This document shows positions 21,913 to 63,711 of a DNA stretch of 64,000 bases, one piece after another. Where the stretch lies: assembly GCA_019187225.1 (NCBI GenBank), contig JABAQQ010000029.1:22099-86098 (forward strand), read 5' to 3'. The notes under the pieces are model-generated. The model saw only the letters and a list, made by a program, of their open reading frames with translations, was not told the DNA's origin and searched no databases. Each line of letters opens with the position of its first letter. The first letter of the stretch is position 1. The stretch is from Saprospiraceae bacterium. Lineage in GTDB: Bacteria; Bacteroidota; Bacteroidia; Chitinophagales; Saprospiraceae. A program made the translations under genes and the position numbers.

Positions 21913-22328
21913 GTGGACGATGGGCTGTTGGACGTTGGACAGTTGGACGTTGGACTGTTGGACTGTTCGATGCTGATCTTCTGACAACCAGTGGGAGCGT
22001 TCAAAATAGTATGCTATTCCGCATTACCCCAACACTGCATGACCGACCGCGAAGCGGTCAAATTTGATTAGCCCATGTGTAACGCGGGGCTGATGGACAG
22101 AAGAAGTTTTGCAACTGCGGAGCAGTTGAATCGCATTCCAAGCAATTGATATTCAACCGCTTCGCGGTTGGCATTACGGGGTGAGGCTCCCCCCGTGTTG
22201 CACACGGGGTTAATCAAATTTGATCGCTTCGCGGTCGGATTTACGGCAGTTAAAAAACAAAATGACACGCTTTTTTAAACACTCCCCAACCAGTCGTTGA
22301 GTCTAATGTCCAACAGTCCAACGTCCAC
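21913..22328. repeat. Nested palindromic repeat region between convergent genes
   Basis: This 416-bp gap holds no convincing gene. GTTGGAC-like units (about 21928-21963) are mirrored by GTCCAAC-like units (about 22301-22327). Inside them, 22043-22073 and 22206-22238 form a ~31-bp inverted repeat (core GACCGCGAAGCGGTC). Between those arms lie further hairpins: AACTGCGGAGCAGTT, AACCGCTTCGCGGTT, GGGGTGAGGCTCCCC and CCCGTGTTGCACACGGG. The block looks like a dispersed palindromic repeat and could terminate transcription from both sides. Confidence 0.8.
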
Positions 22329-54306: not shown

Positions 54307-55119
54307 ATGCAAATGATGCTCCGCCAGTTGCGCCGCCGTATTTTGAAGTGGACAGAACGAAAGTTGAACATTCCCGTAGAGCCTTTGGTACCGGTCGAGC
54401 GCATCGGCACGCCTTACGGCGGCTGGATCATCCCCCAAAACCGGCTGAAACCGGACTCGGTTTGTTATCTCGTTGGCGCCGGTGAAGACGTTTCGTTCGA
54501 CCTCGGTGTAGCAGCGCAATACGGTTGTACGGTACATATTTTTGACCCGACTCCACGCGCTGTGGCTCATTTTGAAGGACTTGTGCAAAATATAAAAAAT
54601 GGACTGCCTGCAAAATGCGCCACCAGCCCCACCGGTTTTTACCCGGAGTATCCAGCCGACCTGGCCGAACGCCTGCATTTTCATCCGGTCGGCATCTGGA
54701 ATGCTGACACGACTCTGCGCTTTTTTGCTCCGAAAAACGAAACATTCGTATCCCACTCTTTGGTGAACCTCCAGCAGTCCGATCGCTTCATCGAAGTGCC
54801 GGTGCGCCGTTTGTCCGGATTGATGCAGGAACTCGGCCACTCCAAAATTGACCTGCTGAAACTCGACATCGAAGGCGCAGAATACCAGGTGATACAATCT
54901 CTTTTAGAAGACAAAGTCGAAGTTGGAATTCTCTGCATCGAATTCGACGAATCGGCAGCGAACCACCTGGATACCAAGTATTTGCAACGCATTAAAGAAA
55001 CTCTGATGGCTTTGTTGGCCGCCGGATACCGGGTGATCGCCAAAGAGCCTGATTGTCATAATTATACGTTGGCGCGCGATGCGAAACATATGTTTCCCAC
55101 CGATAAACCGGTGGGCTGA
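54307..55119 (+). CDS. FkbM family methyltransferase
   Basis: A 270-residue SAM-dependent O-methyltransferase. The start at ATG 54307 (MQMMLRQLRRR) is preferred, since a longer reading overlaps the divergent glycosyltransferase gene. The core is of the FkbM type: VCYLVGAGEDVSFDLGVAAQYG (SAM-binding glycine loop), VHIFDPTPRAVAHF, and KIDLLKLDIEGAEYQVIQSL, the hallmark motif. It probably methylates a sugar on surface glycan made by the neighbouring glycosyltransferases. The last codons (TDKPVG) lie inside a CCCACCG/CGGTGGG hairpin. Confidence 0.92.
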   Translation: MQMMLRQLRRRILKWTERKLNIPVEPLVPVERIGTPYGGWIIPQNRLKPDSVCYLVGAGEDVSFDLGVAAQYGCTVHIFDPTPRAVAHFEGLVQNIKNGLPAKCATSPTGFYPEYPADLAERLHFHPVGIWNADTTLRFFAPKNETFVSHSLVNLQQSDRFIEVPVRRLSGLMQELGHSKIDLLKLDIEGAEYQVIQSLLEDKVEVGILCIEFDESAANHLDTKYLQRIKETLMALLAAGYRVIAKEPDCHNYTLARDAKHMFPTDKPVG

Positions 55120-55205
55120 ATGACCAAATCCTCCGGATTTTTTGCCTCAACCCACCGATTTTTCGGTGGGGATGCGACATAGTTTCCCACCGATCCATCG
55201 GCGGG
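55078..55205. repeat. Three CCCACCG/CGGTGGG hairpins, two with a shared leader
   Basis: Hairpins lie at about 55095-55115, 55149-55171 and 55184-55205. The first and third follow nearly the same leader, GATGCGAAACATATGTTT at 55078 and GATGCGACATAGTTT at 55171, so a ~35-bp unit is repeated directly. The first copy covers the end of the FkbM gene; the third ends 13 bp before the GT4 start. They may act as terminators or be a dispersed repeat. Confidence 0.75.
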
Positions 55206-55218
55206 GCGCAATAAAAAC

Positions 55219-56457
55219 ATGAACGTTCTCCTCCTCAACACCTACCCGCACGGCGGCGCCGGCGTGGCCTGCCGAAGACTGCAAACAGCACTCCAGGCCT
55301 CGGGCGTCAAGGCTAATTTACTGACGGCCAACGATACAGGCGTTCGCTGGCCTTTTTACGCCGAGCGCCTGTCGTTCTTGCCGTATGAACGCGACAAGTC
55401 GGTGCGCTTTTCGTTTTCACTGGCCAATTTCGGGAAAAATCTCGCGCAGCACCCGCTCGTGCGCGAAGCCGATGTGCTGCATTTGCACTGGGTCAATCAG
55501 GGTTTTTTGTCCCTGAAAAACATCCGCCAACTGGCCGAAACCGGCAAATCCATCGTGTGGACACTGCACGACATGTGGGCATTCACGGGCGGGTGCCATT
55601 ACAGCCGGGGCTGTGATCACTTTTTGAACGAATGCGGCGATTGCCCTTTTTTGAAACATCCCGCGCCAGGCGATCTGTCGAACAGCGTGTGGCGGCGCAA
55701 GCGGGAACTGTTTCCTCAAAATATACAATTCGTCACCTGCAGCGAATGGCTGGCAGGCGTGGCGCGGTCGAGTGGGCTGCTGAAAAACTATCCCGTAGCG
55801 GCGATCCCGAATCCAATTGATACGGTGGTTTTCAAGCCTTTGACGGCGGCGGAGCGACAGGCATTCCGTTCTGAAAAAGGCATTGCGACCGGCGCCCATG
55901 TCTTGCTTTTCGCCGCGATGAAAGTGGGTGAAACCCGCAAAGGATTTCAGTTTTTACTGGAAGCTCTGCAAATATTGAGGGCACAAAAGCCTGACTTCCC
56001 ATTAGAAATACTTGTCCTGGGCAAAGCCGAACCGGAAGCCCTGGCGGCGCTCCCCTACCCCGTTCACGCGTTGGGTCTGGTACAGGAACTGCCGGCTTTG
56101 GTGCAGGCCTACGGCGCAGCGGATGTCTTTGTCATTCCTTCGCTGGAGGACAATTTGCCCAATACGGTGATGGAGTCGCTCGCCTGCGGCACTCCCGTGG
56201 CGGGTTTCGCTACCGGCGGCATACCGGAAATGGTCGGTCACCTGCAGGAGGGCTATATCGCGCCGCAGGGCGACAGCGGGGCCCTTGCGGAAGGCATCTA
56301 TGAAATTTTAAAAGGGGGAAAAAGTCTGGATGTTTACCGGGAAGCGGCGCGGGTAAAGGCGGTAAAAAACTACTCGAACGCAGAAGTAGCGAAGCGGTAT
56401 CTGGAGATTTACCTCACCCCGCCTCAAACACCATCGCTTCCTGCCACAATTTCCTGA
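55219..56457 (+). CDS. GT4 family glycosyltransferase (GT-B fold)
   Basis: A 412-residue retaining glycosyltransferase. The N-terminal domain opens MNVLLLNTYPHGGAGVACRRL; the acceptor side includes WTLHDMWAFTGGCHYSRGCDHF with paired cysteines, as in colanic/teichoic type GT4 proteins. The C-terminal domain has the donor motif VFVIPSLEDNLPNTVMESLACGTPVAGFATGG, containing the E-x7-E pattern. Likely role is surface glycan synthesis with the neighbouring GT-A and FkbM genes. The last ~14 residues (after YLEIY) are read from a diverged copy of the 3' end of smc, so the native C-terminus may have been altered when the downstream island arrived. Confidence 0.92.
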   Translation: MNVLLLNTYPHGGAGVACRRLQTALQASGVKANLLTANDTGVRWPFYAERLSFLPYERDKSVRFSFSLANFGKNLAQHPLVREADVLHLHWVNQGFLSLKNIRQLAETGKSIVWTLHDMWAFTGGCHYSRGCDHFLNECGDCPFLKHPAPGDLSNSVWRRKRELFPQNIQFVTCSEWLAGVARSSGLLKNYPVAAIPNPIDTVVFKPLTAAERQAFRSEKGIATGAHVLLFAAMKVGETRKGFQFLLEALQILRAQKPDFPLEILVLGKAEPEALAALPYPVHALGLVQELPALVQAYGAADVFVIPSLEDNLPNTVMESLACGTPVAGFATGGIPEMVGHLQEGYIAPQGDSGALAEGIYEILKGGKSLDVYREAARVKAVKNYSNAEVAKRYLEIYLTPPQTPSLPATIS

Positions 56458-56542
56458 AATCAATCAAGCACAACTTGCAGGCTACTTCCTGCAAGATGAA
56501 CAGGCCGGATTTTGAATCGGCCGTGATGGAGAGACTTGCCAT
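56414..56542 (-). pseudogene. Small chimeric frame: antitoxin-like start joined to an smc tail
   Basis: A 42-codon frame starting at ATG 56540-56542, 11 bp after the RES stop. It begins MASLSITADSKSGLFILQ and ends LIDFRKLWQEAMVFEAG. The last 15 residues match the SMC C-terminus encoded at 60160 (DFRKLGHEAMVFEAG), including the stop position. The first half matches frames in the two other 59-bp repeats (ESLVITADSKSDLE and ESLVVTPNSKSKLEILQ), a pattern reminiscent of small antitoxins. It may be expressed behind the RES gene, but a recombination scar is more likely. It runs antiparallel to the end of the GT4 gene. Confidence 0.55.
56416..56461 (-). other. Diverged second copy of the smc 3' end (att-like)
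   Basis: These 46 bp match 60162-60207 at 42 positions with no gaps, and the smc reading frame and stop are kept (TGA here, TAG there). With the intact copy they bracket the RES/Xre, DUF5615/DUF433 and GHKL genes, as attL and attR do for elements that integrate at a gene's 3' end. Confidence 0.75.
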
Positions 56543-56565
56543 TGCGTGTGGCTTTACCGGTCAAA
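56507..56565 (-). repeat. 59-bp island repeat, copy A
   Basis: One of three gap-free copies (with 57498-57556 and 58242-58300). It begins GGATTTTGAATCGGCCGTG on the plus strand and covers the stop of the RES gene. It matches copy B at about 47 of 59 positions; similarity to copy C extends further, to the GCAAGAT at about 56491. Confidence 0.8.
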
Positions 56566-57015
56566 AAGTCTTTTATCGAACTCAAAAGGTTCACTGCCGG
56601 CGACTTTTATACGTTGAAAATCAGGATGTCGGGGATTGAGCAAAAAGTTGAACTCGTCCTGAACAACTGCGGAAGGCACTCGCAAGACGGCGTATTTATT
56701 CTCAGTAATAAAAGCATCGCCAAATTTTTTGGTATCCTCGGAATGGGGGAAAGCCTTCCAATGCGCTGGTAAAATGGCTTCTTCGAGCACTTCTACAACC
56801 AAGTCGTCAGGAATCTCAATGCTCACCAGCCAATAATCAACAGGAATAATGCGCAGCGGCAAGTGAACAGCCACCTCTACGGTACAAAGCGCGCGACTGG
56901 CGGCACTGTAAACCATTGGGATACCCACACTGTTCCAGCGCCCGCCGACGAGTTCAGCGCCTTTGCCGGAAAGGTCATTTTTGAATTGTCCCTTGGAAAG
57001 CCGGAAAACTGTCAT
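56554..57015 (-). CDS. RES-domain NAD+-degrading toxin
   Basis: A 153-residue toxin of the RES family, which depletes NAD+ by phosphorolysis or hydrolysis. The active-site residues are where expected: R5 (TVFRLSK), R26 (ELVGGRWNSVG), Y36 (MVYSAAS), E47 (CTVEVAVH), and the C-terminal NFLLNPRHPDF loop. Length is typical. Its ATG overlaps the stop of the Xre/MbcA-type antitoxin gene by 4 bp (coordinates 57012-57015), the standard antitoxin-first layout. Its stop lies inside repeat copy A. It is the rightmost module of the island at the smc end. Confidence 0.95.
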   Translation of the reverse strand: MTVFRLSKGQFKNDLSGKGAELVGGRWNSVGIPMVYSAASRALCTVEVAVHLPLRIIPVDYWLVSIEIPDDLVVEVLEEAILPAHWKAFPHSEDTKKFGDAFITENKYAVLRVPSAVVQDEFNFLLNPRHPDFQRIKVAGSEPFEFDKRLFDR

Positions 57016-57437
57016 GCGAGGATACCGTGTTCGATGCGGGTGAGTTCGTCCTTGATAATTTCTATTCCGAACGTGCTGTCCAGCAACGACTTGGGTTTAA
57101 CGTCTCCCAGGGCGATATTTTCTGCATCCAGCCATACTTTGAAATTTTCCAGGTTCCCGAATACGGACTCGCCTTGTTTCAAGACCTGCGCAATTCCCAA
57201 TACACGCTCCGAATAAATGGGGTCGAGCGGCGTTTTTTCCTGCCGGTAGCGCTGCAGGGTGCGCTCATTAAGTTGCACAAAGGCCGACCATTCCTTCAAG
57301 GTGAACGGACTTTGAGCAATGACCAGGTTGAAAAGGTCGAAATCCAAACCCTTTCTGGCGATGTTCATCAGCAGGTAAGGGTTCGACAGTACCTGTTGCA
57401 GGTTGGTGAAATTGCTCTCGGCGATAGGTTCGGACAT
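57012..57437 (-). CDS. Xre/MbcA/ParS-type antitoxin (DUF2384)
   Basis: A 141-residue antitoxin. The N-terminal helix-turn-helix (LKEWSAFVQLNERTLQRYRQEKTPLDP) should bind the operator; the C-terminal toxin-binding domain has ERVLGIAQVLKQGESVFGNLENFKVWLDAENIALGDVKPKSLLDS, with the NIALG motif that neutralises RES toxins. It precedes the RES gene with a 4-bp overlap. A hairpin-like GTCGTAATTTTACCGAC just upstream of the start is a plausible autorepression site. Probable mRNA start lies between it and repeat copy B. Confidence 0.95.
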   Translation of the reverse strand: MSEPIAESNFTNLQQVLSNPYLLMNIARKGLDFDLFNLVIAQSPFTLKEWSAFVQLNERTLQRYRQEKTPLDPIYSERVLGIAQVLKQGESVFGNLENFKVWLDAENIALGDVKPKSLLDSTFGIEIIKDELTRIEHGILA

Positions 57438-57497
57438 GGCAGGCGAAATTTGTCGGTAAAATTACGACAATTTTCAGGAAAAGGATTTTTCCAAGTC

Positions 57498-57556
57498 GGA
57501 TTTTGAATCGGCCGTGATGACGAGACTTTCCTTAGGGCGTGATGTTAAGGGTCAAA
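57498..57556 (-). repeat. 59-bp island repeat, copy B
   Basis: A gap-free match to copies A and C, about 47 of 59 identical to each by hand count. It covers the stop codon of the DUF5615 gene. The minus-strand frame reads ESLVITADSKSDLE and then stops within a few codons, with no ATG, so it looks like a remnant. Confidence 0.8.
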
Positions 57557-57905
57557 TTTTTGCTCTGATTCGCAGCCTTCGCCCATCCAACACGGCAAAA
57601 TTATTGGGCAAATCCGCGAGATTCTCTCGGATGGCGCGGAGAACCAATTTGATTCTAACATCTATTTGGAAACCGCCAAGCCGGATGAGCAAAATCCCGC
57701 GATGCGGCAATCGGAGGCGAACGACCAATTCGCCGAAGTCTTTGTCCTCTGTCAAGAGTAGCGCATTTTGGTCAAAAGCGATGCTCAAAACTTGCTTGTC
57801 TGTGATGCTGAGGTCTTCCTCCACAACCGCCCAAACATCGTATCCCTCGCCGCGCAAGGCCGCTACGATTCTGAAATCAACGCTTTCATCGGCGACAATA
57901 TTCAT
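57552..57905 (-). CDS. DUF5615 PIN-like toxin
   Basis: A 117-residue protein of the PIN-like DUF5615 (Mut7-C type) family, putative ribonuclease toxins. The acidic residues that would bind metal are D6 (IVADESVDF) and the D54/D56 pair in LLLTEDKDFGEL; the C-terminus RAIRENLADLPNNFAVLDGRRLRIR is typical. It follows the DUF433 gene by 25 bp on the same strand, the usual antitoxin-toxin order. RNA cleavage is inferred from the fold. Confidence 0.92.
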   Translation of the reverse strand: MNIVADESVDFRIVAALRGEGYDVWAVVEEDLSITDKQVLSIAFDQNALLLTEDKDFGELVVRLRLPHRGILLIRLGGFQIDVRIKLVLRAIRENLADLPNNFAVLDGRRLRIRAKI

Positions 57906-57930
57906 AGAGAGAAAAAAGTAAGGAGAGGAT

Positions 57931-58173
57931 TTAGGCGGCCATCACAAATTTAATTATTTCATTCTTAACCGTTTCGGCAGCGAAAATGAGGCAGGCGTGG
58001 ATGGCTTGCTCTGAAACGCGCGGGTAGGCGAGCAGCAATTCCGGGATGGTTTCGCCCTTGCCCAATTTCTCCAAAATAAGATGCACCGGAACGCGCGTGC
58101 CTTTGATGACAGGCTTGCCGAACAGAATTTCCGGGTCGGAGGTGATGTAGTCTTGCCAGTGGATGTCAGTCAT
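57931..58173 (-). CDS. DUF433 antitoxin
   Basis: An 80-residue protein starting at ATG 58171-58173 (MTDIHWQDYITSDPEIL); a longer reading would need a TTG and crosses the promoter. It has the whole DUF433 pattern: GKPVIKGTRVPVHLILEKLGKGETIPELLLAYPRVSEQAIHACLIFAAE, a winged helix-turn-helix. DUF433 proteins pair with PIN-like toxins, as here. The native promoter (TATATTTG) and a GCCCGA/TCGGGC palindrome lie just upstream. Confidence 0.93.
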   Translation of the reverse strand: MTDIHWQDYITSDPEILFGKPVIKGTRVPVHLILEKLGKGETIPELLLAYPRVSEQAIHACLIFAAETVKNEIIKFVMAA

Positions 58174-58187
58174 GGTTGGAAATTTTT

Positions 58188-58216
58188 TGCCCGACAAATA
58201 TAGGCGTTTTTTCGGG
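58188..58216 (-). promoter_or_regulatory. TATATTTG promoter inside a GCCCGA/TCGGGC palindrome
   Basis: TATATTTG on the minus strand (58195-58202) is an exact -7 match 21 bp before the DUF433 start. It lies within an inverted repeat with arms GCCCGA/TCGGGC at about 58189-58216, a plausible operator for DUF433 autorepression. Confidence 0.5.
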
Positions 58217-58241
58217 CGACTGCTTGCAAGATTTCCAACTT

Positions 58242-58300
58242 GGATTTTGAATTGGGGGTGACGACGAGACTTTCCGTAGGGGGTGATTTTGAAGGGCAGT
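58242..58300 (-). repeat. 59-bp island repeat, copy C
   Basis: Third gap-free copy, touching the stop of the GHKL gene. The minus-strand frame reads ESLVVTPNSKSKLEILQ and continues as far as a stop that overlaps the DUF433 ATG (ATGA), with no ATG of its own. Confidence 0.8.
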
Positions 58301-60063
58301 TAGAAAGGTTTTGCCAGCTCTTGTATGAGCCAGTTGAGTTGAGTCCTCGCTACACTAACGATTTCGGAATAGCTCAGGAGTTTAACATCTGGGCGTTCGT
58401 TATGGGATGAAATGTTCGAGTCAACTTTCCCTCCAACTACGAATATTTGAATTTTTTTGTTGTGAATCACCGAATTCAGGTCGTCTCGATACTCCAAAGC
58501 CTGCCGCTCCGCTTCTCTTCCAACTGAAATCGAAGGCTTTTTAAATTCGATTAGAAGATATTGCCGAAGGATACTCTCCCCAAGAAGCAAGTCGGGACGT
58601 TTGCTAGCTCTATTGCCAGAAAATGATTTATCTAACATTTCTTCAATGGCCTTTTTCAAAGTCTTATTTGAGAAACACAGAGAATATTCACTTCCAAATA
58701 CCCAAAGGTTTCGTTCCAATGCTTGATGCATATTGGCTTCCAAAGTCTTAGGGTTTGCAATCAAGGCATCCAACTCATCTAAAAATTGCAATCTATTTTT
58801 TGCTTGACTAGAAATCATAGCCATTTCTAAAAAACCAAACTCTGACAAGACTTCGGAGAACTTTTCAATGTCGCCATCGCGAGATTCTTCCATTTTTTGA
58901 ACCACATTCCAGTAATAATCTTTTTCTAGAGCATCAACCATCACAGAGATTATTATGCCCACCTTCTCATCAGATTCACTGTAAAATTTCTCTAACACTT
59001 TATTCAATTCTTTTTCCGCGAACGACCTTTTAAATTCTGGAAGTTTGGCCAACTCTCTGTCTATTCTCAATTTATGCCTCGCTTTTGCAAGGTTCATTTC
59101 GGAATGGAAAACTGAACTCAAACTAGCCTTCATCTCTACAGAAGCAACTTCTTTTATTTCATTATAGATTTTGCTATTTTCAACGAAGCCTCCCCAATCC
59201 GCTGTAACATCATTTTCAGCAAGGGAACCACTACTGATTTCCCCAACTAATCGTTTTTTTAAACTATCTGGCACGAGTTCATCTTGCTTCAGAAAGTTTT
59301 CGGGTCTGCCGATTACCTTGTCCCCGACGCGGAAAATTACGCCGGGAGTTTTGACAGGTTTTTCTGAAATAGTGTAATTAAATATTGCAGTTTCGCCATT
59401 CGATAATATGATTTCCTTTGAAAACGTTTCACCTTTAATGTCCTGAATACCAACTCTTTCATCGTTTACTTTGATGACGAAATCATGCGCCCGGCCATAT
59501 TCCCAAACTAGAATCTGTTTCAATTTTTCGGGATTAGGGAAAGTAAAGTTTTGATTTAACCCCCGAAGCGTAATAATTGTACCATGCTCAGATTTGTCGC
59601 AGTCTTTAACATCAATGGGTAATTTGACTTTTTCCAAGTCATACTTCGCTTTCGCCAGTGCCTCTTTACTAATAGTCAGTGTAGTTTCTTTTCCTCCTGC
59701 CCGAGTTTTTATTTCCATAATTTCAGCTACCATCAAGCCTGCGAATTTACCAATTCCTTTTCTTCCTTTGACCAGCCTACCTTTTCCGAAGGTTCTCTCT
59801 CCTTTACGAGAAAAACGGCTATTGGCAATTTTAAGATACTCATGTCTCACTTCCTGCTCTTTCATGCCTGTCCCATCATCAATAATGACTATTTCAGGAT
59901 TTTCGGAGAAATCCGGTTGAGGTAATATCACATACACTTCGTCAGCATCAGCATCATAAGAATTATCTACCAATTCTTTAATGGCATCTTCGGTTGACTT
60001 GTAGGTCTCACCAAGAAGTTCAGCAAGTTTAGGGTCAACTTGAAAGTTTGCAGAGTTTTTCAT
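58300..60063 (-). CDS. GHKL ATPase fused to a Shedu-like PD-(D/E)XK nuclease
   Basis: A 587-residue cytosolic protein. The N-terminal ~250 residues are a GHKL (Hsp90/MORC-like) ATPase: N box with E30 and N34 (EDAIKELVDNSYDADADE), G1 at 62-67 (DDGTGM) and a glycine lid at about 100-109 (GRKGIGKFAG). A helical middle follows (about 300-460). The C-terminal ~130 residues read as a nuclease: RPDLLLGES with D491, then LLIEFKKPS with E506 and K508, and an ERQALEYRDD helix, as in Shedu (DUF4263) proteins. Coding DNA is more AT-rich than its neighbours. Likely anti-phage or DNA-conflict effector driven by ATP-dependent clamp closure; this is inference. It has its own promoter. Confidence 0.87.
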   Translation of the reverse strand: MKNSANFQVDPKLAELLGETYKSTEDAIKELVDNSYDADADEVYVILPQPDFSENPEIVIIDDGTGMKEQEVRHEYLKIANSRFSRKGERTFGKGRLVKGRKGIGKFAGLMVAEIMEIKTRAGGKETTLTISKEALAKAKYDLEKVKLPIDVKDCDKSEHGTIITLRGLNQNFTFPNPEKLKQILVWEYGRAHDFVIKVNDERVGIQDIKGETFSKEIILSNGETAIFNYTISEKPVKTPGVIFRVGDKVIGRPENFLKQDELVPDSLKKRLVGEISSGSLAENDVTADWGGFVENSKIYNEIKEVASVEMKASLSSVFHSEMNLAKARHKLRIDRELAKLPEFKRSFAEKELNKVLEKFYSESDEKVGIIISVMVDALEKDYYWNVVQKMEESRDGDIEKFSEVLSEFGFLEMAMISSQAKNRLQFLDELDALIANPKTLEANMHQALERNLWVFGSEYSLCFSNKTLKKAIEEMLDKSFSGNRASKRPDLLLGESILRQYLLIEFKKPSISVGREAERQALEYRDDLNSVIHNKKIQIFVVGGKVDSNISSHNERPDVKLLSYSEIVSVARTQLNWLIQELAKPF

Positions 60064-60101
60064 GTTTTGACGGAGTAGGAATTTTAGAAATCAAATTCAT
60101 A

Positions 60102-60109
60102 CAAAGGTA
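60102..60109 (-). promoter_or_regulatory. -7 box TACCTTTG before the GHKL gene
   Basis: An exact TAnnTTTG match on the minus strand, 38 bp before the GHKL start codon. A TTG lies 20 bp further upstream. The island's largest gene therefore has an independent promoter. Confidence 0.5.
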
Positions 60110-60159
60110 AACGCCACATCAAAAATCTACAATCAACAATCTTAAATCGCCAATCAATC

Positions 60160-63100
60160 CTACCCCGCCTCAAACACCATCGCCTCATGCCCCAACTTCC
60201 TGAAATCCACCGGCGTGACAGCTGACACCCCCTGTTCCGGCATATACACCCCGTAAATCGTATCCACTGCCGCCATCGTCGCCTTGTTGTGCGTGACGAC
60301 GATGAACTGCGAGTCTTTCGAGAACTGGCGGATGATGCGGTTGAACTTTTCGATGTTGGCGTCGTCGAGCGGGGCGTCCACCTCGTCGAAGATGCAAAAA
60401 GGCGCGGGTTTGAGCAGGTAAAGGGCGAAAAGCAGGGCGGTGGCGGTGAGTGTCTTTTCGCCGCCGGAGAGTTGGGCGATGGTCTGGGGCCGCTTCCCTT
60501 TCGGCTTGGCGATGATGTTGATGTCCGATTCGAGCGGCGCGTCGGGATTGGTGAGCACGAGATCGGCGGAGTCGTCTTCGGTGAAGAGCGTGCGGAACAC
60601 GCTGATGAAGTTTTCGCGCACCTGGGCGAAGGATTCGAGGAAGCGGGCGGTGGCGGTTTCCTCGATCTCTTTCATCGTCTGGATGAGGTTGTCTTTGGCA
60701 GCGAGGATGTCGTTGCGTTGTCCGGCAATGGTGTCGTAGCGTTCCTTGATCTCGTTGTAGGCTTCGATGGCCATCGGGTTGACTTCGCCGTAGGTGTCGA
60801 GTCTGCGTTTGAGGTTGTTGACCTCGCGCTCGAGGGAATCGCGCTGGTAAGCCGGGTCGGGCTCGTTGTTGATGACGTCGTTCACGCCGATGCCGAATTC
60901 CGCCCGGAGCCGCTCGCCGATGGCCGTGATCTCAAATTTGACGTCGCCGAATTTTTCTTTCAGGCGGTTCACCAAACCCTGTAAGTCCTGCTGCTGGCGG
61001 AAATTCTCGCGCTGTTTGTTTTCCAGTTCGTGGATTTCGTTGCGGGCTTTGAAATAGGTCTGCTCCACGGCGCTGAGTGCGGCTTCTTTTTCTTTTTTCT
61101 CTAAGTATGCTGCCTGTAGGTCTGTGATAATTTGTTGAATTTCAGCCTCGATCAGTTGCACTTCGTCGGCGTTGCGGGCCAGGTTCGTTTGTGCGGAGGC
61201 GAGGTTCTGGCGGAGTTCCTCGCGGCGTTTTTCGCGGTAGCTCAGTTCCTGCCGGAAAGCGTTGACCTTGTTTTGCTGCCGGATGAACTCGATGTTTTTC
61301 TGGTTAAAGGCGGCGCTGGTCTGGCTCAGGTGTTCGGCTACATCCCGGAAGGAGCCGTCGGCGTTGGCAAGGCGCTCGCGGACGGCAGTTGCGGCGCGGT
61401 TTTTTCCTGTCAATTGTATTTCTATCGCGGCATTGCTCTCCGAAAGTGATGCGATACGCTCATTGGCATCGCCCGCCTGGGCGTCGAAATTGGCGACGAA
61501 CGCAGCGATGTTGTCCAGCTTGGCCTGCATGCCCGCTTTTTCCTGGCTCAGGCGGTGCAGGTTTTCGCGTTCGCGCTGGAGCAGGACGCCCTGGTCGGCG
61601 TTTTTCAGGCTTTGCAGGTGGGTGCGTAAAGTGGCGAGTTGGTTATTGAGTTGGTTTTCAGTGTTTTCTAATTTCCTGATTTCATTTTCCAGGATTTCCA
61701 GATTCTTTTTCCGGCCAATTTTTTTGCCTTCGAACAGACCGACAGAGCCGCCGGAAATACTGAATTTCCGGCGCACGAAGGTGCCGGATTTGGATAATAT
61801 GGTCAGTTCCGGACTGGGGATTTGGGAGGGAGGCGCCGGATCGTCGGAAATGACGACATTCTCCAGCAGGAACTCCACCAGAGGCCGGTATTGCAGCTCC
61901 ACCTCCACCAATTCGACGGCCCGAATGCCGCCGGGCAGCAGCGCGAGCGGCGCCGTGTAGTCGCGGAAAGCGTCGAGCAGGAAGAAATTGGCGCGGCCTT
62001 TCTGGCTCTGACCGAGCAGAGCGATGGCTTTGGCGGCCTCGTCCACATTGGGCACCACGTAGTAGTTAAGGTATTGTTCTAAGTAGTTTTCGATGACGAC
62101 GCGGTACTCCTCGCGGACGTAGATCAGGTCGGACAGCAACGGGCAGTTTTTTGCCCAGTCTTTTTGCTGGCTCAAAAACTTGATGCTCTCCGGAAAGCCT
62201 TCGAGCGACTCGACCATACTCTTGGTGAGTTTGTACTCGTTGCGGCGGGCGTCGAGTTGGCGGTTGTGGGTGGCGATCTTTTTCAGCAACTCGTCCTGCT
62301 GCTGTTCGGCTGCGGCGATGTCGGCTTTGCGTTTGGTTTCGGCGGCTTCCAGGCCCTTGATTTTCTGCAATTCTGCCGCTTCCAGTTTGTCCTGTCCGGC
62401 AATGTTTTGTTCCAAAACCTTCATCTCTTCACGGCGGGCGGCGATGTCGCCGAGGGTGCGTTCCACGTCGCGGCGGAGGTTTTCGACCTGGCTTGTCTGA
62501 ATGGCTTTTGTTTTTTCCAGTTCGACGATCTCGCGCTCCAGTCCCTGCTGTTCTTTTACGAATTCATCCAGATTGCCTTTCAGCAGGTTGTGGTCGGCAC
62601 GGACTTTTTCCAGCAATTTTTGCGCTTCGGAAAGGGCATTCTCGAATTCAGCTTCCACATTGCGCTCGTAGTTCAAATCGGTCTGGTAGCCTTCGATCTC
62701 GGAATCGAGCGTGCGCAACTGATTGGTATTGTTGGCGATCTGGTCATTCAGGCGCTGCACGTCGTTGGCGACGAAGGAGCGTTTTTGTTCCAGCATCGCC
62801 TTTTCGTTTTCCTTGCCGCGGATGCGCCCGGTGAGGCGGTTGACCTCCTGCTGTTGTTCGCTGAGCGAGGTTTCCTTGTCGGTGTGGCTTTTTCGTTTGG
62901 CTTCGATATCGGCGTCGAGGAGCCGCGCCATCGCCTCGGTGGAGCGGTAGTTGTCCTCCTCGCGGGCGATCTGGCTTTCGAGGTCTTTGAAGGTTTTTTT
63001 GTGGCGGGCGAGGTTGTGGACGGCCAGTTCGATGCTGAGTTTTTTGTACTCGTCCTTGAGTTCGTAGTATTTACGGGCGCGCTCGGCTTGTTTTTCGAGT

Positions 63101-63711
63101 TTTTTGAGTTGGTCTTCTATTTCAAACAACAAATCCTCCACGCGGTCGAGATCGGCGGCGGTGGCTTCGAGTTTTTGCTGGGTTTCGTGTTTGCGGGCTT
63201 TGTATTTGCTCACGCCCGCGGCCTGCTCGAACATGCGGCGGCGCGCCTGCTCGCGGTCGCTGAGCAGGTCTTCCACCATGTTGAGCGCGATGATGGCGTA
63301 ACTGTCGGCGCCGATGCCCGTGTCGAGGAACAGCGAAGTGATGTCTTTGAGGCGGCAGGTGACGCCGTTGAGGCGGTATTCGCTCTCGCCGGATCGGTAG
63401 AGGATGCGGCTGATGCTGACCGTGCCGTAGTCGGTCGGCAGCACGTTTTTCGTGTTGTCGAAGGTCAGCGTGACCTGCGCCATCTGGCCTTCCTTGCGTT
63501 TTTTGGTGCCGTTGAAAATGACCGACGACATTTTGTCGAGGCGCAGTTCGCGGCTTTTTTGCTCGCCCAGCACCCAGCGGATGGCGTCCACCACATTGCT
63601 TTTGCCCGAGCCGTTGGGACCCACCACGCCGGTCACGTCGGCATTGAAGTGGAGCACGGTTTCGTTGGCAAACGACTTAAAGCCTTTGATTTCGAGAGAT
63701 TTTAAACGCAT
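60160..63711 (-). CDS. smc: Chromosome segregation ATPase SMC
   Basis: A complete 1183-residue SMC. The ATP-binding head is split: Walker A GPNGSGKSN at about 32-40 and, at the C-terminus, the signature LSGGEKTL (about 1078) and Walker B FCIFDEVDAPLDD (about 1107) with the D-loop. Between them are two long coiled coils (about 165-505 and 680-1020) around a hinge with the conserved glycines (about 510-650). SMC dimers with ScpA/ScpB compact and segregate the chromosome. No scp gene adjoins it. The start MRLKSLEIKGFKSFA is canonical. The last 46 bp are duplicated at 56416-56461. Confidence 0.98.
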   Translation of the reverse strand: MRLKSLEIKGFKSFANETVLHFNADVTGVVGPNGSGKSNVVDAIRWVLGEQKSRELRLDKMSSVIFNGTKKRKEGQMAQVTLTFDNTKNVLPTDYGTVSISRILYRSGESEYRLNGVTCRLKDITSLFLDTGIGADSYAIIALNMVEDLLSDREQARRRMFEQAAGVSKYKARKHETQQKLEATAADLDRVEDLLFEIEDQLKKLEKQAERARKYYELKDEYKKLSIELAVHNLARHKKTFKDLESQIAREEDNYRSTEAMARLLDADIEAKRKSHTDKETSLSEQQQEVNRLTGRIRGKENEKAMLEQKRSFVANDVQRLNDQIANNTNQLRTLDSEIEGYQTDLNYERNVEAEFENALSEAQKLLEKVRADHNLLKGNLDEFVKEQQGLEREIVELEKTKAIQTSQVENLRRDVERTLGDIAARREEMKVLEQNIAGQDKLEAAELQKIKGLEAAETKRKADIAAAEQQQDELLKKIATHNRQLDARRNEYKLTKSMVESLEGFPESIKFLSQQKDWAKNCPLLSDLIYVREEYRVVIENYLEQYLNYYVVPNVDEAAKAIALLGQSQKGRANFFLLDAFRDYTAPLALLPGGIRAVELVEVELQYRPLVEFLLENVVISDDPAPPSQIPSPELTILSKSGTFVRRKFSISGGSVGLFEGKKIGRKKNLEILENEIRKLENTENQLNNQLATLRTHLQSLKNADQGVLLQRERENLHRLSQEKAGMQAKLDNIAAFVANFDAQAGDANERIASLSESNAAIEIQLTGKNRAATAVRERLANADGSFRDVAEHLSQTSAAFNQKNIEFIRQQNKVNAFRQELSYREKRREELRQNLASAQTNLARNADEVQLIEAEIQQIITDLQAAYLEKKEKEAALSAVEQTYFKARNEIHELENKQRENFRQQQDLQGLVNRLKEKFGDVKFEITAIGERLRAEFGIGVNDVINNEPDPAYQRDSLEREVNNLKRRLDTYGEVNPMAIEAYNEIKERYDTIAGQRNDILAAKDNLIQTMKEIEETATARFLESFAQVRENFISVFRTLFTEDDSADLVLTNPDAPLESDINIIAKPKGKRPQTIAQLSGGEKTLTATALLFALYLLKPAPFCIFDEVDAPLDDANIEKFNRIIRQFSKDSQFIVVTHNKATMAAVDTIYGVYMPEQGVSAVTPVDFRKLGHEAMVFEAG
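60162..60207 (-). other. Intact smc 3' end, partner of the copy at 56416-56461
   Basis: The end of the functional smc gene, coding DFRKLGHEAMVFEAG and stop. It is the left boundary of the inferred island; beyond it toward lower coordinates begins a short AATCNNC-rich spacer and the GHKL gene. Confidence 0.75.

Follow-up and report, generated by a model that had tools for sequence, protein, structure and literature searches.

Described Systems and the smc Locus

In integron arrays, and in their counterparts consisting of integron cassettes without an integrase (CALIN), the units lie in the same orientation, each with a repeat at its 3′ end, the variable unit stands at one end of the array, and the attC repeats fold into imperfect hairpins. 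The locus considered here is a block of defence and toxin–antitoxin (TA) genes on the 3′ side of smc in a 7.18-Mb draft genome of a Saprospiraceae bacterium, hereafter G000; the window analysed is the whole 64,000-nucleotide stretch at positions 22,099 to 86,098 of its contig JABAQQ010000029.1 (G000:C29:22099-86098). The locus shares with integron and CALIN arrays the same-orientation units with 3′ repeats and the variable unit at one end. Unlike them, it is accompanied by no integron integrase (IntI) over the family cut-off, copies b and c of its repeat, termed D1, lack an attC-like fold, and the repeat occurs at one locus.

Three further systems are relevant. Many hotspots lacking an integrase are flanked by recombining core genes, with homologous recombination at work (2017, PMC5635113). 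The smc locus is like these in that a core gene with an excess of recombination stands beside apparently fast-turning accessory genes without an integrase, but here smc is on one side and D1 follows every unit on the other, and three genomes rather than a population are compared. In effector–immunity modules of the type VI secretion system (T6SS), sequential displacement proceeds by homology-facilitated illegitimate recombination, with the old 3′ ends pushed back (Kirchberger et al. 2017, PMC5361080). A constant homologous arm upstream, with a new module coming in and old 3′ ends and modules moving outward, would be common to both, whereas at the present locus a whole housekeeping gene would form the arm, the cargo is of the defence/TA kind and the displaced end is 46 bp of smc. 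Finally, genomic islands can integrate at gene ends, for example at the 5′ end of dusA (PMC4482086). Cargo framed by a directly repeated gene end is a feature shared with such islands, but here no recombinase lies in the interval, the repeats differ at 4 of 46 bases, and there are cargo-bearing relatives without the repeat.

On balance, the block appears to be a small defence/TA array, 3′ of smc, that is exchanged among related Saprospiraceae lineages by homologous recombination without an integrase. The smc gene is mosaic, the cargo between smc and D1 differs between sister genomes, D1 stands after each unit, the interval has no integrase, and the outer copy of the smc tail is degenerate.

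Mosaicism of smc and Its Cargo

The 3′ flank of smc was taken from 32 of 36 same-genus genomes, one of which (G023, sequence L075) had no smc end, leaving 31 relatives whose flanks measured between 44 bp and 15 kb. Protein families were assigned with Pfam and defence families with PADLOC, and control divergence was determined on 14 genes.

In the window, smc (60160–63711, minus strand; SMC_N, 1.1e-71), the presumed homologous arm, is mosaic by its divergence and site patterns. Between the relatives G007 and G009, a 3.9-kb block running from about 380 bp before smc to the start of unrelated units is 91.1% identical, with identities of 95–97% in the flanks of the block and 96–97% after D1; across 381 overlapping 3.5-kb control segments over 50 kb of aligned sequence, the lowest value was 94.9%. 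Divergence at four-fold degenerate sites of smc was 30.0% (144/480) between G000 and G007, versus 42.6–70.2% in the 14 control genes, and 18.2% (90/495) between G007 and G009, versus 6.2–15.4% in the same controls. Because smc is too low in the first comparison and too high in the second, codon constraint cannot explain both. Fisher tests of smc against rpoB gave 2e-5 for G000–G007 and 1e-3 for G007–G009 (the 1065-codon open reading frame, or ORF, beside rpoB is presumably rpoC). Sites grouping G007 with G009 account for 53% of the informative sites in smc versus 83% in rpoB and 86% in secA, and they are clustered along smc, with 0 of 5000 permutations as extreme. The divergence and site patterns together indicate that smc has been exchanged between lineages, and in the case of G007 and G009, at least, to all appearances along with the cargo that follows it.

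Following smc, G007 carries a type II methyltransferase and a CfrBI-type endonuclease, D1, a DUF433 gene with a broken DUF5615 partner, a further D1 and an alpha/beta hydrolase gene, in that order, while G009 carries a PDC-S26 nuclease gene, D1 and a hydrolase flank that matches that of G007 at 97% identity. Unrelated defence units are therefore held between the same borders, smc and the D1/hydrolase flank, and the cargo adjacent to smc is a type II restriction–modification (R-M) system in G007, PDC-S26 in G009 and a GHKL–Shedu-like gene in G000.

Read outward from smc on the minus strand, the G000 cargo is a GHKL ATPase, a DUF433–DUF5615 pair and an Xre–RES pair, and Pfam agreed with the families that had been named by the sequence-only reading, an earlier annotation of this window. 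The smc-proximal unit encodes the GHKL ATPase (58300–60063; PF13589, 4e-29), with a Shedu-like (SduA_C) C-terminal region whose Pfam match is sub-threshold (1.4e-5; 25.7 bits, the cut-off being 27); PADLOC returned REase_II at 1e-14 over the ATPase part and SduA at 3.5e-5. The middle unit encodes the DUF433 protein (57931–58170; PF04255, 1.6e-21) and the DUF5615 protein (57552–57905; PF18480, 9e-20), which we take to be the antitoxin and toxin of a pair. The outermost unit encodes an Xre/MbcA/ParS-type antitoxin (57012–57437; PF09722, 1.2e-11; PF20432, 5e-9) and a RES-domain protein (56554–57015; PF08808, 5.5e-26), presumably a toxin, judging by its family. All five genes are on the minus strand, and no integrase was found among the ORFs and Pfam matches of the interval, as the earlier annotation had also held. 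Together with both of its D1 copies, the DUF433/DUF5615 unit is common to G000 and G007 (782 bp at 82% identity).

Several side observations concern these units. The DUF5615 gene of G007 (L045, 10434–10787) has two in-frame stops, and its DUF433 partner is intact. The motif TAnnTTTG, presumably the Bacteroidota −7 box, occurs 25–47 nt before the GHKL, DUF433 and DUF5615 starts in G000 (57552–60160), not before those of Xre and RES, and also before the assumed DUF433 and methyltransferase starts in G007 (L045, 10796–13459). An Rfam search gave one hammerhead match, rejected at E 0.51 as far under threshold.

The Duplicated smc Tail

As the sequence-only reading had pointed out, the final 46 bp of smc are repeated, in frame with a stop, on the far side of the cargo. 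The functional tail, delimited by repeat alignment, is at 60162–60207 (minus strand), and the degenerate copy, an old or spare tail, is at 56416–56461 (minus strand); the two form a direct repeat with 42 of 46 bases identical and a start-to-start spacing of 3746. When the last 181 nt of smc were used as a query against the 7.18-Mb genome, the copy was recovered at E 1.5e-11 and the next hit at 0.32, with no third copy, and the 46-bp end is thus present at two places only in G000. In the smc frame, the copy reads DFRKLWQEAMVFEAG followed by TGA, and smc proper reads DFRKLGHEAMVFEAG followed by TAG. Four bases differ: two of the changes are silent, and the others alter the smc end from LGHEAMVFEAG to LWQEAMVFEAG, with W and Q at the G and H codons. 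The His residue is present in every relative read (31 of 31), and the Gly position is variable among them but never Trp; since the copy has Gln in place of the former and Trp in place of the latter, the outer copy is the decayed, non-functional one.

A whole-genome search for the smc tail covered 42 genomes: 17 gave a match of any kind, and G000 alone had a second long copy. Flanks of 0.2–15 kb from 30 of the 31 relatives were also searched (the 31st, at 44 bp, was too short), and no second 46-bp tail framing cargo was found in any of them, including those of G007 and G009 with other defence cargo on the same smc flank. The expectation that other cargo would be found between the same 46-bp repeats was accordingly not borne out in these 30 flanks.

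Shorter resemblances to the tail were also seen. Fragments in G021 (31 nt, E 6e-4; L164, 4390–4420, intergenic and away from its own smc) and in G007 and G009 (24 nt, E 0.007) were judged to be chance matches, and a 14-nt inverted match in the G005 flank was discarded as noise. G009 has its own smc-tail repeat of 24/25 nt, 63 bp past the stop, which belongs to a local tandem duplication that includes a dispersed palindrome and is unlike the 46-bp frame. This tandem copy and its palindrome, TAACGCCAACT...AGTTGGCGTTA, lie at L048 1473–1614, and the palindrome family has 45 matches in G009, 10 in G007, 1 in G063 and 0 in G000 (E 0.001, both strands).

Beyond the copy lies a GT4 glycosyltransferase gene (55219–56457, plus strand; Glyco_trans_1_4, 3.4e-24), whose last codons and stop fall within the old tail, as had been claimed. 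In G007 and G009, the orthologous gene has a different end, 8 residues past a common 'IY', and is followed by a 3′–5′ exonuclease gene that we take to be rnd. GT4 next to smc in G000 is a product of chromosome rearrangement, because 633 kb separate the two genes in G007; in G009, they are on different contigs. No GT4 match was found in any fetched smc 3′ flank of the 31 relatives, and the predicted empty site, with GT4 running straight into smc, did not come to light. A simple reciprocal exchange between GT4|exonuclease and hydrolase|smc is unsupported, as both genes have different neighbours in G000, where a sigma-factor gene follows the hydrolase gene and the exonuclease gene is on another contig. 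On the other side of GT4, three small palindromes, CCCACCGAT...CGGTGGG, occupy 55096–55206 between an FkbM methyltransferase gene and GT4.

The tail copy could be a mere by-product of this GT4–smc rearrangement, through tandem duplication of the tail and a subsequent deletion, and be unrelated to the arrival of the units. The separation of the two genes in G007 and G009 is consistent with such an origin, and so are the scrambled gene order on both sides of smc (see the 5-kb counts below) and the unrelated local duplication of the smc tail in G009. We nevertheless consider this explanation unlikely, if not negligibly so; under it, the position of the copy on the outer border of the D1 array would be a coincidence.

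The sequence-only reading had seen in the repeat the layout of an element that integrates into the smc 3′ end, uses it as an attachment site and rebuilds it, its integrase having been lost or supplied in trans. A direct repeat with restored frame and stop, cargo in between and a decayed outer copy would fit such an element, and IntI-related tyrosine recombinases, under the IntI cut-off, do occur elsewhere in G000. The interval, however, is without an integrase, the 46-bp frame is absent from G007 and G009 in spite of their different cargo at that position, and an integrase would not make smc mosaic, as it is; an integrative origin is therefore quite improbable. The topology that was described, with a new tail and cargo before an old tail, holds, whereas an element with a 46-bp attachment site in smc is unsupported, given the same-flank cargo of G007 and G009 without a second tail. 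Homologous exchange had been offered as one of three options, and it is this process whose mark smc carries. Among the titles and abstract openings surveyed, none names smc as an integration site; PMC4045577 contains the phrase 'smc gene' once.

The D1 Repeat

The earlier annotation overlooked D1, a 67-nt repeat that closes all three G000 cargo units at their 3′ ends. Repeat comparison places copy a at the end of the Xre–RES unit (56497–56563), copy b at the end of the DUF433–DUF5615 unit (57488–57554) and copy c at the end of the GHKL unit (58232–58298), all on the minus strand. In the 42 genomes searched, D1 follows every unit in three, with six copies in total: three in G000, two in G007 and one in G009. 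For non-coding DNA, D1 is well conserved, with copy c and the G009 copy identical at 55 of 57 nt and four-fold sites of control genes differing by 44–73% between G000 and G009.

Elsewhere in G000, the D1 search found only three 21-nt matches at E 0.42. G008 has one 20-nt match that straddles the D1/DUF5615 border, a pattern search of genome_contigs hit a single contig (JAHBTU010000005.1, taken to be the same G009 locus), and viral_contigs contained no D1. The possibility that D1 is a dispersed mobile repeat is unsupported, the repeat having been found at the smc locus only in the searches made.

Between the tail copy and the first D1 lies a perfect hairpin with 8-bp arms, CTTGCAGG/CCTGCAAG (56474–56495, not assigned to a strand), within a 116-nt stretch that folds at z −2.7. 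Folding was assessed for the G000 copies on the unit strand: copies b (z −0.57) and c (z +0.88) show no fold, and copy a does fold (z −2.7), but the stretch folded includes the adjacent hairpin. As for recombinases, no integron integrase over the family cut-off was found in any of the 42 genomes. One tyrosine recombinase of G000 (G000:C28:94598-95410; 587-aa frame) gives an IntI-like match under the cut-off, at 135 bits and in two pieces with profile positions 183–237 unmatched, and similar split matches were seen in other members of the genus.

Integron cassettes without an integrase, with D1 as attC, would account for same-orientation units that are each followed by a related repeat and for a variable unit at one end, but this interpretation is very improbable and was rejected because D1 copies b and c of G000 do not fold (the G007 and G009 copies being outside the folding test) and 0 of 42 genomes have an IntI over the cut-off, D1 moreover being confined to one locus.

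The smc Flank across the Genus

Across the genus, gene order is little conserved on either side of smc. With 18, 18 and 15 of 20 genomes usable at 3, 5 and 8 kb, the genome pairs that share an ORF upstream versus downstream of smc number 9 versus 3 of 153, 10 versus 8 of 153 and 6 versus 8 of 105, respectively. PADLOC, read at 1e-10, matched the first gene in 5 of 29 flanks of 0.7 kb or more downstream of smc and in 2 of 20 upstream, with no clear excess; the two upstream matches are MotB-type ZorB only. These counts do not show that the 3′ side of smc is unusually variable within the genus.

Individual relatives nonetheless carry units of interest close to smc. For example, G034 (L046, 12582–14241) and G016 (L049, 6601–8261) have homologous PDC-M29-like AAA units directly after smc. 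G027 and G006 share the gene order beyond with G034 and G016, but have an FMN reductase gene directly after smc, which looks like two gains or losses. Close behind smc, G022 carries a PDC-M63A/DUF6932 gene (L056, 1750–2543) and G033 a pair of PIN-domain genes (L065, 8371–9965).

A Probable Exchange Anchored in smc

Under the exchange favoured here, incoming DNA would bring smc together with the units behind it, and smc and its immediate upstream region would serve as a long homologous arm. On the far side, D1 at the end of a unit may act as a short second arm, or else the ends may be joined illegitimately. Units would be added at the smc-proximal end, with older material moved outward. In G000, one joint would have fallen about 46 bp inside the recipient smc, leaving the old 3′ end behind as a decaying spare tail; the recipient's old smc end would by then have abutted GT4 through the earlier rearrangement. 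The spare tail most likely marks a single illegitimate joint. A broader version of this scheme is conceivable, if somewhat doubtful, in which smc and the D1-tailed units form an integrase-free cassette platform, with smc as the left arm and D1 as the right; units would enter beside smc, and this chromosome-segregation gene would be continually replaced between species as the vehicle of defence genes.

A number of points weigh against exchange by homologous recombination. No strain with an empty smc–GT4 junction was found in the fetched flanks, and we thus infer the joint that left the tail; no donor genome was found, and the 46-bp scar occurs in one lineage only. Because the DUF433 unit is shared with G007, some of the array could be older than the rearrangement. 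A DDE transposase ORF in G009 overlaps the end of the PDC-S26 gene, before D1, and the second D1 of G007 is a partial match (E 0.0016). The background for the G007–G009 identity is about 50 kb of aligned sequence plus flanks, with one of ten fetched G007 control regions aligned, and some 200-bp bins of the flanks themselves drop to 90.5–92.5%; the mosaicism of other genes was gauged on 14 genes only. Finally, smc identity shows no dip between G034 and G027, which differ by the PDC-M29 unit, nor in the partial pair G016–G006, so not every change at the site drags smc along.

Implications

Three genomes here provide a small, self-contained example in which defence genes turn over next to a core gene, no mobile element being apparent, and in which this turnover is linked to traces of recombination within that core gene. 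A caution also follows: cargo framed by a repeated gene end need not imply an integrase. Should the arrangement of D1-tailed units be borne out in more strains, it would represent a simple way in which defence units are shuffled by housekeeping recombination alone.

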